This document shows, in pieces, positions 52,908-61,919 of a stretch of DNA of 64,000 bases. A model generated the notes under the pieces. That model made no database searches, was not told the origin of the DNA, and worked only from the letters and a program-made list of their open reading frames with translations. Source of the DNA: Sphingomonas sp. (GTDB lineage Bacteria > Pseudomonadota > Alphaproteobacteria > Sphingomonadales > Sphingomonadaceae); NCBI GenBank assembly GCA_019635535.1, contig JAHBZH010000001.1, positions 2,632,995 through 2,696,994 on the forward strand. The letters are read 5' to 3'. The position numbers were made by a program, and so were the translations under genes. The number at the start of each line of letters is the position of its first letter. Within the stretch, counting starts at the first letter, position 1.

Positions 52908-52946
52908 AGGGCCAGCGTGGAAAAGGTGAATGCGAAAGATCTGGCC

Positions 52947-53096
52947 ATGAAGGGCGGTTCCCTCCGGCGCTTCGAGCGGGTGATCCCGCCGGCTGAACAT
53001 GCCGGCCTGGGCGCCGCCTTGCGCCGCGCCTTTCACATGAACGGCGAAACGCGTTCGCTCAAGCAGTTTGAGGACTTGCTCGCCCGGCTCGATTGA
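52947..53096 (+). CDS. nepR: Anti-sigma factor NepR
   Basis: 49 aa from the ATG (in-frame GTGs at 52917 and 52926 would give 59 or 56). The core GLGAALRRAFHMNGETRSLKQFEDLLARLD follows the NepR pattern of LR..Y......P.P..F..LL..L. NepR holds EcfG inactive until phosphorylated PhyR titrates it. It is convergent with ecfG, with 15 bases between the stops. PhyR is not in the window. Confidence 0.72.
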   Translation: MKGGSLRRFERVIPPAEHAGLGAALRRAFHMNGETRSLKQFEDLLARLD

Positions 53097-53111: not shown

Positions 53112-53765
53112 TCAATCCTTGGCGGCGGCTTCGCGATCGCGGCTGAGCTCGTCGACCGCGCCCATGATCGTCTGCAGCGCCGTCTTGCCGCTGACCGGAG
53201 CGTCCCGCCGCGACGGCAGATCGCTGCCGGCGAGCAGCGTCTCCAGCGCGACCCGACCGCGCGCCACGCGGCTTTTGATCGTGCCGACCGCGCAGCCGCA
53301 GATTTCGGCCGCTTCCTCATAGGCGAAGCCGCCCGCGCCGACCAGGATCAGCGCCTCGCGCTGAGGCTGAGGCAGGTGCATCAGCGCGCGCTGCATGTCG
53401 CCCAGTTCGATATGCCGGTCCTGGCTCGCCGGCGCGGCGAGCAGCTTGGACGCGGTGATTTCGTCCCATTCGCCCTTGAAGCGGGCGCGGCGCATCTGGC
53501 TCAGAAACAGGTTGCGCAGAATGATGAAGGTCCAGGCACGCATGTTGGTGCCCGCCTGGAAACGCTTGCGCGCCGCCCAGGCCTTGAGTAGCGTCTCCTG
53601 CACCAGATCATCGGCCAGGTCGCGGCTGCCCGACAGCGAACGGCCGAAGGCACGCAGATGCGGGATGACCTGAGTGAGCTGCTGCTTGAACTCAGAGTCG
53701 GTCAGCGGCACCGTCTCGGCGCCGCCCTTGCCGTCTCCGTAGCTTGCCGGCTTCACGCCCGCCAT
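53112..53765 (-). CDS. ecfG: General stress response ECF sigma factor EcfG
   Basis: 217 aa. Sigma-2 region (LTQVIPHLRAFGRSLSGSRDLADDLVQETLLKAW, then MRAWTFIILRNLFLSQMRR) and sigma-4 (LPQPQREALILVGAGGFAYEEAAEICGCAVGTIKSRVARGR) match the ECF15/EcfG group. It directs RNA polymerase to GGAAC-N16/17-CGTT promoters under stress. I use the ATG at 53765; a TTG at 53792 is also in frame. The upstream small gene carries a perfect EcfG promoter, so the sigma factor may drive its own transcription from there. Confidence 0.9.
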   Translation of the reverse strand: MAGVKPASYGDGKGGAETVPLTDSEFKQQLTQVIPHLRAFGRSLSGSRDLADDLVQETLLKAWAARKRFQAGTNMRAWTFIILRNLFLSQMRRARFKGEWDEITASKLLAAPASQDRHIELGDMQRALMHLPQPQREALILVGAGGFAYEEAAEICGCAVGTIKSRVARGRVALETLLAGSDLPSRRDAPVSGKTALQTIMGAVDELSRDREAAAKD

Positions 53766-53843
53766 CAATCCGCCCTTATACCAACGCGACAAGGGGCCGT
53801 AGATGCAACCTGCGGCATCGACACCCCAAGGTCAGGATAGACC

Positions 53844-53981
53844 TTATCGCCAGACAAACAACAGGATCAGGAAGATTGCGGTGACCAAGGCCAGACCCCA
53901 GCCAAGGACGTAGCGCGTCACATGCGGGGTCGATCCCGCACGCGCATCTGTCTTGCTGATATGCCGCCCTTCCTGATCCAT
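53844..53981 (-). CDS. Tail-anchored microprotein upstream of ecfG
   Basis: 45 aa. A polar, charged N-terminal half (MDQEGRHISKTDARAGSTPHVTRYV) and a single C-terminal membrane helix (GWGLALVTAIFLILLFVW). It is too short for routine gene calling. It lies directly behind a perfect EcfG-type promoter and 78 bases before ecfG, so it would be a general-stress-induced membrane peptide and possibly the first gene of the ecfG operon. Confidence 0.55.
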   Translation of the reverse strand: MDQEGRHISKTDARAGSTPHVTRYVLGWGLALVTAIFLILLFVWR

Positions 53982-54021
53982 GCGAAAAGCACCCCTCGGG
54001 TTCCATTCGTTACAGGAAGGC

Positions 54022-54046
54022 AACGCCCGCCGCCCGGGCCGGTTCC
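54022..54046 (-). promoter_or_regulatory. EcfG-type promoter (GGAAC-N16-CGTT)
   Basis: Read on the minus strand: GGAAC (54042-54046), 16 bases, CGTT (54022-54025). This is an exact match to the EcfG consensus and lies 40 bases before the ATG of the 45-aa gene at 53981, with ecfG next downstream. Confidence 0.75.
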
Positions 54047-54093
54047 CACAATCCACCGCGCGGAGCGCACGTTTTCGCGCGCGCGCCGACGGG

Positions 54094-55644
54094 TCAGCCG
54101 CGCAATTCCGGAAGGTGGTCCGCGTCGATATGGTCGGAGAAGCGGGTGATCTTCGCGTCGAACTTCAGCCGCACCTTGCCGGTGGCGCCGTGGCGCTGCT
54201 TGGCGACGATCATCTCGGCCATCTGGTAGACGCGCTGCATGTCGCGCTGCCATTCCTCATGCGCTTCCCAGACCTTGGAATCGTCGCCCTCGATCGGCCG
54301 CTTGGGCTCGCGCGCCGCGACATAATATTCCTCGCGATAGACGAACCAGACCATGTCGGCGTCCTGCTCGATCGACCCGGATTCGCGCAGGTCCGAAAGC
54401 TGCGGGCGCTTGTCCTCGCGCTGCTCGACGGCGCGGCTGAGCTGGGAGAGGGCGAGCACCGGCACGCTCAACTCCTTGGCGAGCGTCTTCAGGCCGCGCG
54501 AGATTTCGGAGATTTCCTGCACGCGATTGTCGTTGTTGCCCCGTCCCGTGCCCTGGAGGAGCTGGAGATAATCGACGATGACGAGGCCGATCCCCTTCTG
54601 CCGCTTCATCCGCCGGGCGCGGGTGCGCAACGCCGCGATGGTGAGGCCGGGCGTGTCGTCGATATAGAGCGGCAGCGTCTCCAGCTCGGCGGCGGCGCGG
54701 GCGAGATTGCGGAAATCGTGCTGGCTGATCTTGCCCATGCGCAGGGCTTCGGAGCTGATCCCGCTATTCTCGGCGAGGATACGCGTGGCGAGCTGGTCGG
54801 CCGACATTTCGAGGCTGAAGAAGGCGATGCCGGCGCCGGCGCGCTTGGCCGGATCGATCCCGTCCTCCTCGTCCTGCAGCCAGCGCCGCGCGGTGTTGAA
54901 GGCGATGTTGGTGGCGAGCGCCGTCTTGCCCATGCCGGGGCGGCCGGCGAGGATGACGAGATCGGAGCCGTGCAGGCCGCCGGTCTTGGCGTTGACCGTC
55001 TCCAGGCCGGTGGTGAGGCCGGAGAGGCCGCCGCCGGAATTGAGCGCCTTTTCCGCCATCTGGACGGCCATGCGGGTGGCTGTCGCGAAGCTCTTCACCG
55101 AGCCCTCGCCGCCCCCTTCCTCGGCGACGCGGTAGAGCGCGGCCTCGGCACTCTCGATCTGGCCCTTGGGATCGACCTCGTCCGACGTGTCGAGCGCCTG
55201 CTCGACCATCTCGCGCCCGACGCCGACCAGGGCGCGCAGCAGCGCGAGATCGTAGATCTGGTCGGCGAAATCGCGCGCGCCGATCACGGTGGCGGAGCCG
55301 GAGCCGGTGAGCTGCGCCAGATAGGCCGGGCCGCCCAGCTCCTTCATCTGCTCGTCCGCCTCGAACAAAGGGCGCAGCGTGACGGGGCTGGCGATCATGT
55401 TCCTGTCGAGCAGGCGCAATATCTGATCGTAGATGCGCGCGTGGAGCGGCTCGAAAAAATGCTCCGGGCGCAGGCGAATCTGGATGTCCTCGGCCAGCCG
55501 GTTGTCGATCATCAGCGCGCCGAGCAGCGCCGCCTCGGCCTCGACATTGTGCGGGAGCGACTGGGTCGCGGGCTCGGATTCGACGACGTTGAACGAGGGT
55601 TGGGCCATGCCCGACTCATTGGACCCTTCCGCCGCGGCGCTCAA
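54094..55644 (-). CDS. dnaB: Replicative DNA helicase DnaB
   Basis: 516 aa (504 from Met13). N-terminal domain (PHNVEAEAALLGALMID) and RecA-like helicase domain with Walker A AGRPGMGKTA, FSLEMSADQLATRI, DYLQLL Walker B and ALSQLSRAVEQREDKRPQLSDLRESGSIEQDADM. It opens the replication fork as a hexamer. No DnaC/loader gene adjacent. Divergent from the UPF0262 gene with 59 bases between starts. Confidence 0.97.
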   Translation of the reverse strand: MSAAAEGSNESGMAQPSFNVVESEPATQSLPHNVEAEAALLGALMIDNRLAEDIQIRLRPEHFFEPLHARIYDQILRLLDRNMIASPVTLRPLFEADEQMKELGGPAYLAQLTGSGSATVIGARDFADQIYDLALLRALVGVGREMVEQALDTSDEVDPKGQIESAEAALYRVAEEGGGEGSVKSFATATRMAVQMAEKALNSGGGLSGLTTGLETVNAKTGGLHGSDLVILAGRPGMGKTALATNIAFNTARRWLQDEEDGIDPAKRAGAGIAFFSLEMSADQLATRILAENSGISSEALRMGKISQHDFRNLARAAAELETLPLYIDDTPGLTIAALRTRARRMKRQKGIGLVIVDYLQLLQGTGRGNNDNRVQEISEISRGLKTLAKELSVPVLALSQLSRAVEQREDKRPQLSDLRESGSIEQDADMVWFVYREEYYVAAREPKRPIEGDDSKVWEAHEEWQRDMQRVYQMAEMIVAKQRHGATGKVRLKFDAKITRFSDHIDADHLPELRG

Positions 55645-60911: not shown

Positions 60912-61919
60912 TCAGGCCGAAACCACTTCCTGCGCGATGGTTCCGAAGATCGGGTGGCCGTGCGCGTCGTCCATCCAGATGCGGACGGTGTCGCCGGGCT
61001 TGAGGAAGGGGGTGGCGGGCTTGCCGTCGAGGATGGTCTCGACGGTGCGGATTTCGGCGAGGCAGGAATAGCCCTTGCCGCCGCGATCCACCGGCTTGCC
61101 GGGGCCGCCGTCCGCGTCCTTGTTGGAGACCGTGCCGGAGCCGATGATCGTGCCGGCGCCCAGATTCCGGGTCTTTGCCAGATGCGCGATCAGGGTGCCG
61201 AAATCGAAGGTCATATCGACGCCCGCATCGGCGCGGCCGAAGGGCTCGCCGTTGAGGTCGACCTTGAGCACGCCATGCAGCTTGCCGTCCGCCCATGCGT
61301 CGCCCAGTGCGTCGGGCGTCACGAAGACGGGCGAGAGCGCGGAAGCCGGCTTGGACTGGAGGAAGCCGAAGCCCTTGGCCAGCTCGGCCGGGATGAGGCC
61401 CCGGAGGGACACGTCGTTGACCAGGCCGATCAGCCGGATGTGGCCGAGCGCGTCGGCGCGGGAGACGCCGCGCGGCACGTCGCCGGTGACGACGACGATC
61501 TCCGCCTCGAGATCGCAGCCCCAGGCCTCGTCCGCCAGCGGGACCGGATCGCGGGGGGCGAGCATCTCGTCGGACGCGCCCTGATACATGAGCGGATCGG
61601 TCCAGAAACTCTCCGGCATCTCGGCGCCGCGCGCCTTCCGCACCAGCTCGACATGGTTCACATAGGCCGATCCGTCCGCCCACTGATAGGCGCGCGGCAG
61701 CGGCGCGTCCGCCTCGCGTTCGTGAAAGCGCTCGCGCGGGATCGCCTCATGCGCCAGATCGGTCGCGAGCAGGCGCAGGGCCGGCTCCGCGTTCGCCCAA
61801 TCGTCCAATGCCGCCTGCAAGGTCGGCGCGATGTGGCGCGCGTCCGCGCACCAGGCGAGATCGTCCGAGACCACCACCAGCCGCCCGTCGCGACCGCTCT
61901 TCATGCTGCCAAGTTTCAT
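60912..61919 (-). CDS. Fumarylacetoacetate hydrolase (FAH) family protein
   Basis: 335 aa from MKLGSMKSGRDGRL. Metal-binding Glu motif DLEAEIVVVTGDVPRGVS (EAE), VNDVSLRGLIP, and IIGSGTVSNKDADGG characterise the family. Members hydrolyse fumarylacetoacetate, fumarylpyruvate or act as decarboxylases; the substrate here is unknown. It lies next to rnr with zero spacing; mmsA is divergent. Confidence 0.88.
   Translation of the reverse strand: MKLGSMKSGRDGRLVVVSDDLAWCADARHIAPTLQAALDDWANAEPALRLLATDLAHEAIPRERFHEREADAPLPRAYQWADGSAYVNHVELVRKARGAEMPESFWTDPLMYQGASDEMLAPRDPVPLADEAWGCDLEAEIVVVTGDVPRGVSRADALGHIRLIGLVNDVSLRGLIPAELAKGFGFLQSKPASALSPVFVTPDALGDAWADGKLHGVLKVDLNGEPFGRADAGVDMTFDFGTLIAHLAKTRNLGAGTIIGSGTVSNKDADGGPGKPVDRGGKGYSCLAEIRTVETILDGKPATPFLKPGDTVRIWMDDAHGHPIFGTIAQEVVSA

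Follow-up and report, generated by a model that had tools for sequence, protein, structure and literature searches.

The window analysed here is a stretch of 64,000 nucleotides from Sphingomonas sp. (contig JAHBZH010000001.1), in which a short frame preceded by an EcfG-type promoter lies between dnaB and ecfG. On the minus strand, in window coordinates, a GGAAC box (54046-54042) is followed by a spacer of 16 bases, a CGTT box (54025-54022), 40 bases and then an ATG (53981-53979), which opens a frame of 45 codons whose stop ends at 53844. The preliminary description of this DNA had placed GGAAC-N16-CGTT 40 bases before a short frame, which is correct base for base, and its location of the site between dnaB and ecfG is confirmed. 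The single C-terminal helix that it ascribed to the 45-aa frame is found too: AlphaFold2 predicts one helix at residues 19-44, for most of which pLDDT exceeds 90, behind a low-confidence N-terminal tail, and the best 19-residue hydropathy window spans residues 25-43. The features of the locus, and those of the same genome to which the text refers, are as follows.

54094..55644, minus strand: dnaB, the upstream neighbour on the same strand (Pfam DnaB, DnaB_C)
54042..54046, minus strand: EcfG-type promoter, -35 element GGAAC (same element and place in 28 of 79 loci; GGACC or GGAGC variant in about 48 further loci of the 79)
54022..54025, minus strand: -10 element CGTT, after the 16-base spacer and 40 bases 5' of the ATG
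53999..54014, minus strand: conserved 5' UTR element TGTAACGAATGGAACC, near-identical by eye in L001, L004, L007 and L010
53844..53981, minus strand: bitopic membrane peptide of 45 aa, MDQEGRHISKTDARAGSTPHVTRYVLGWGLALVTAIFLILLFVWR, orthologue of S. melonis Fr1 #1446
53766..53843, minus strand: gap of 78 bases between the peptide stop and the ecfG ATG, with an alternative ecfG TTG start at 53792
53112..53765, minus strand: ecfG, general stress response sigma factor (Pfam Sigma70_r2, Sigma70_r4_2, PhyR_sigma2)
52914..53096, plus strand: NepR2-like ORF (60 aa, GTG start), which converges on ecfG and lies at the same place in 16 relatives
C1:2710680-2713590 (= L087 3681-6591): phyR, nepR and a PhyT-like kinase
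C1:2711854: the NepR proper of this genome

The EcfG encoded in the window shares 75-88% identity with 80 sphingomonad EcfG proteins. The convergent NepR2-like ORF (HAGLGAALRRAFHMNGETRSLKQFEDLLARLD) was unrecognised by the Pfam NepR model at E 1, and the NepR2 of S. melonis (#1448), which adjoins ecfG, is likely its orthologue. A longer frame of 70 aa opening at a GTG (54056) was rejected, since its start lies upstream of the -35 box and therefore cannot be on the EcfG transcript; an ATG start is common to the peptide orthologues, in line with the ATG at 53981. Taken alone the promoter site is weak evidence, because the loose pattern GGAACN{15,18}CGTT occurs four times in the window against 1.27 expected from shuffling, and 5 of 100 shuffles reach four occurrences. 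The case for the peptide and its promoter rests on conservation rather than on the occurrence of the motif. Elsewhere in the window, at 60944 on the minus strand, a GGAAC-N16-GTT ends 9 bases short of the ATG that opens an RNase R-like gene (769 aa), which is possibly a second EcfG target or a chance match.

To assess conservation, 80 contigs encoding a close EcfG were found through ecfG, and the peptide was called present where a stop-to-stop frame on the ecfG strand, directly upstream of ecfG, matched the peptide profile with E below 1e-6. Such a frame was present in 78 of the 80 sphingomonad loci; the two remaining are L013, where the contig end cuts it, and L027 (S. montanisoli). All copies start with ATG and measure 44-54 aa. 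Among 79 sequences there is no variation at M1, R23 or L26 (window numbering) and almost none at R14, G16 and A13, and TPH/TPG, TRY and S/G at position 29 are well conserved. In pairs under 25% different, codon positions 1, 2 and 3 carry 362, 188 and 1133 substitutions, respectively, and between the window peptide and that of its nearest relative (L001) pS is 0.50 and pN 0.12. These close pairs and codon positions were used in place of a pooled dN/dS, whose value of 0.48 is distorted by saturation. The conservation and the substitution pattern identify the frame as a real gene under purifying selection. One of the loci, L074 (RPSH01000017.1), is titled Bacillus sp. 2B10 and shows a typical Sphingomonas phyR-peptide-ecfG arrangement, so that it is probably mislabelled or contaminated.

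An EcfG-type promoter precedes about 76 of the 79 sphingomonad copies, in two architectures that are newly described here. An exact GGAAC...GTT is found in 28 copies, ending 28-53 bases 5' of the ATG. In 42 others the -35 box is of the GGACC or GGAGC type, the start of the spacer is conserved, and only 8 or 9 bases separate GTT from the ATG, which suggests that the EcfG mRNAs of Sphingomonas proper would be nearly leaderless. The pattern missed nine copies, six or seven of which show a GGACC/GGAGC box by eye (e.g., L025, L039, L054, L057, L062); in L023 and L065, where the peptide is present, no clear EcfG-type promoter was seen by pattern or by eye. In L028-L079 the GGACC-type promoters lie about 35 bases before the ATG, with the conserved spacer start CAAAACG. 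In the window's clade (L001, L004, L007, L010) the 5' UTR element TGTAACGAATGGAACC is conserved in the leader, 3' of the -10 box and 5' of the peptide ATG; it resembles the promoter region GATACGGACCC found in the other clade and might be what remains of a second promoter, or else an RNA or operator element. Two marks of an EcfG regulon member were found for the peptide gene, namely a perfect GGAAC-N16/17-CGTT match within about 100 bases of the start, here at 40 bases, and a promoter kept with the gene in relatives and enriched in distant copies.

The position of the promoter bears on ecfG itself. In the window, neither a terminator nor a second EcfG-type promoter was found in the gap at 53766..53843. 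Across the sphingomonad loci another EcfG-type promoter is absent from all 78 peptide-ecfG gaps, which makes it likely that the peptide and ecfG form an operon under autoregulation; a terminator-like site within 100 bases after the peptide was seen in 1 of the 78 loci. In S. montanisoli (L027) no peptide precedes ecfG, yet GGAACCCGTTACGGCGACGTCCGTT is kept there, and the peptide gene has been relocated beside gyrA (L192) with its own perfect GGAAC-N16-CGTT (GGAACAACCGCCAACGCTACCCGTT). The promoter is thus found at both of the separated genes, and each therefore appears to keep one when they are apart.

Evidence at the level of expression comes from S. melonis Fr1, whose transcriptome table numbers nepR as #1444, phyR as #1445, ecfG as #1447 and nepR2 as #1448, and lists #1446 as a 'hypothetical protein' with the motif GGACCCAAAACGGGTTTCGGGGGTT 2 bases from its start and a log2 change of -6.2 in the ecfG deletion (PMC6599016). 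Among the rows of this table that are listed, only one value (-6.3) is more negative. The 25-base string GGACCCAAAACGGGTTTCGGGGGTT was matched in 2 of 151 Sphingomonas genomes (L193, L194), and in both the ATG 2 bases past it opens MIMADPNEPVHVTATEARAGATPGVARYVLG..., between phyR and ecfG; since it directly precedes the peptide orthologue in both genomes, #1446 is that orthologue. The S. parapaucimobilis copy (WP_042489965.1) is likewise a RefSeq 'hypothetical protein' between a response regulator and a sigma factor. The EcfG dependence of #1446 sits unremarked in the table; this entry was the only trace of the peptide found in the literature, and no experiment on it in any organism was found. 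The preliminary description had proposed that EcfG drives expression of the peptide, and the dependence measured for #1446 (PMC6599016) supports this; the autoregulation of ecfG that it suggested is inferred from the peptide-ecfG gaps. It had also raised conservation of the frame in other sphingomonads, which holds in the loci described above and, through homologues, beyond the family, and it missed that these homologues make up a family spread over the class and linked to the locus of the general stress response.

The window's species departs from most relatives in what lies upstream. The phyR gene is directly upstream of the peptide in L093 and L094, of the same genus, and in most relatives. 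In the window's genome phyR, nepR and the PhyT-like membrane kinase are together about 24 kb from ecfG, and the comparison indicates a recent split of the stress-response locus. After the apparent break the promoter, the peptide, ecfG and the convergent NepR2-like ORF have stayed together, with dnaB now upstream on the same strand. Because dnaB, the peptide and ecfG share a strand and no terminator was found between them (53844-55644), including the dnaB-peptide interval, transcription of dnaB might read into ecfG and lead to its constitutive expression in this species.

With the profile, the peptide was found in 129 of 150 genomes of Sphingomonadaceae, mostly as a single copy, and a wider profile (E 1e-5 or better) recovered it in at least 45 of 385 genomes drawn across the Alphaproteobacteria. 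The family consensus is [E/D]AR[QA]GxTxGxMRYVLxISLxLxV, in which the motif [E/D]ARxGxTxGxMRYVL is followed by one helix. No Pfam or NCBIfam model matches the family above its curated cut-off; the best chance-level match, for a distant member, is YbgT/CydX PF08173 (E 0.24, 11.9 bits against a cut-off of 26.2). Membership of other known small membrane families (YbgT/CydX, Hok) was rejected on this absence of matches above the cut-off. An identity as a NepR anti-sigma factor (PF18557) was also rejected, as the peptide has no Pfam match and a single membrane helix at 19-44, whereas NepR is a soluble two-helix protein.

The neighbourhoods of 40 copies not adjoining ecfG, nearly all the class matches, were then compared. 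Outside the Sphingomonadaceae, PhyR, EcfG or NepR is encoded within about 12 kb in 16 of 37 loci and 9 of 24 families, or in 17 loci and 10 families when the weaker L171 is counted. In an unselected clustering of the neighbour proteins of the 40 loci, the PhyR/EcfG group is the sole one to exceed four families, with 13 loci in 9 families, and no non-stress neighbour recurs in five or more; the next two groups reach four families, and one of these consists of loci in the stress-response region. The peptide and NepR occur together in 31 genomes against 7.7 expected, a comparison uncorrected for genome size and phylogeny. Within 160 bases upstream of the 40 distant copies, an EcfG-like site scoring at least 8/9 was found in 18 loci against 2.0 expected from control stretches, an enrichment of about ninefold, and one scoring 9/9 in 7 against 0.2; about half of the distant copies have no recognisable EcfG promoter. 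A peptide unique to ecfG neighbourhoods was rejected, as some sphingomonads and other families have copies elsewhere. A NepR match is absent in 14 of the 45 peptide-bearing class genomes. That the peptide depends strictly on the stress-response cascade was rejected on the genus g128 (G181, G309, G406; L167, L180), which has the peptide with no NepR and no convincing PhyR. New here are the identity of the peptide across the class, its recurrent linkage to the stress locus, and the natural separations, which argue for a function in trans.

The most likely reading of these data, held with moderate confidence, is of a peptide that is induced by stress, sits in the inner membrane and would modulate a membrane partner by binding it. 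Under stress, EcfG would be freed and would bind GGAAC-N16-CGTT, with transcription beginning in a short mRNA leader and passing through the 45-aa peptide into ecfG. The peptide would insert in the inner membrane with its N-tail of about 22 residues in the cytoplasm, an N-in topology suggested by the arginines at positions 6, 14 and 23 on the N side. The juxtamembrane motif ARxGxT...R and the small-residue face of the helix may then bind another membrane protein, whose activity or stability would change during stress, as with induced single-helix peptides such as MgrB. Binding of a membrane partner is suggested by the conserved juxtamembrane motif together with the small residues in the helix, and by a tail that is not long enough for catalysis. 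The first candidate partners, put forward with low certainty because the family recurs in the stress-response locus, would be the membrane-anchored kinases PhyT and Paks; PhyT, formerly PhyP, is described as a membrane-anchored protein whose gene lies at the phyR locus (PMC5898713). A bolder and more doubtful extension of partner binding is that the peptide may be an unrecognised, class-wide and EcfG-induced core component of the general stress response (GSR), feeding back on the membrane kinase and phosphotransferase layer (PhyT, Paks and equivalents). If true, membrane-side control would be added to the PhyR-NepR-EcfG switch.

Against binding and modulation of a partner, it is quite possible that the peptide is a downstream effector, protecting the envelope directly or serving as a small accessory subunit of a respiratory or transport complex, to which the ecfG promoter is merely convenient. 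Because some lineages keep the peptide without PhyR or NepR, its function may be other than dedicated regulation of the stress response, its partner could lie outside the cascade, and an envelope effector role is nearly as likely as kinase feedback. The distant copies point the same way: a terminator-like site follows 7 of the 40, against 4 of 200 controls, so that the peptide is often apparently its own transcription unit there. EcfG targets of known role are, moreover, mostly effectors (PMC6599016). An effector is harder to reconcile with the neighbourhoods, where only the regulatory core of the stress response recurs in distant families and no conserved adjoining membrane complex was found. 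It is improbable that the frame is a cis-acting leader whose translation tunes ecfG expression with no role for the peptide itself; the frame does lie directly 5' of ecfG on the same putative transcript, but its amino acids are conserved in copies far from ecfG (beside gyrA in S. montanisoli, and in other families), and the gap to the EcfG domain, 97-167 bases, is too long for direct translational coupling. The short, hydrophobic and stress-induced character of the peptide would also suit a toxin-like pore peptide of type I (TisB/Hok style), by which the membrane would be depolarised during stress and growth slowed; this is equally hard to credit, given a usually single copy per genome, vertical conservation at a syntenic place, a conserved soluble motif and no noteworthy match to a toxin model in Pfam or NCBIfam. 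A chance frame behind a real promoter whose sole target is ecfG, as the promoter without a peptide at the one sphingomonad locus L027 might suggest, is ruled out by conservation, with the codon-position bias, the class-wide homologues and the relocated L027 copy with its own promoter also against it.

The GSR of the Alphaproteobacteria, which include plant symbionts, pathogens and environmental strains, is described as PhyR, NepR, EcfG and kinases. A tiny gene accompanies ecfG in nearly all the sphingomonad loci examined, ranks in the S. melonis transcriptome among the genes most dependent on EcfG, and belongs with relatives that bear no family name in some 24 other families, often close to that locus. 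The response may have a missing membrane component. As to known systems, the nepR2-ecfG1 operon of Sphingopyxis granuli TFA (PMC7083833) similarly has a short gene and ecfG behind one GGAAC-N16-CGTT promoter, but the short gene of the window encodes a membrane peptide unrelated to NepR, and its nepR is elsewhere. The orthologue S. melonis Fr1 #1446 shares with the window peptide an EcfG-type promoter and the place just before ecfG; it has phyR upstream and a measured EcfG-dependent expression, whereas the window's species has dnaB upstream and differs by a promoter of the GGAAC type that stands 40 bases before the gene and leaves a leader. The MgrB-type peptides of enterobacteria offer an analogy, being of about 45-50 aa, with one helix, and induced by the response whose kinase might be touched. 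MgrB has conserved periplasmic cysteines, which are absent in the window peptide, and no sequence similarity is claimed; the stress-locus linkage is only a hint of an MgrB-like binding and regulation of a sensor kinase. In E. coli, the RpoS-controlled, tail-anchored proteins ElaB and YqjD resemble the window peptide in induction by general stress and in a C-terminal membrane anchor; they are about 100 aa long, their soluble part binds ribosomes, and homology is not claimed.
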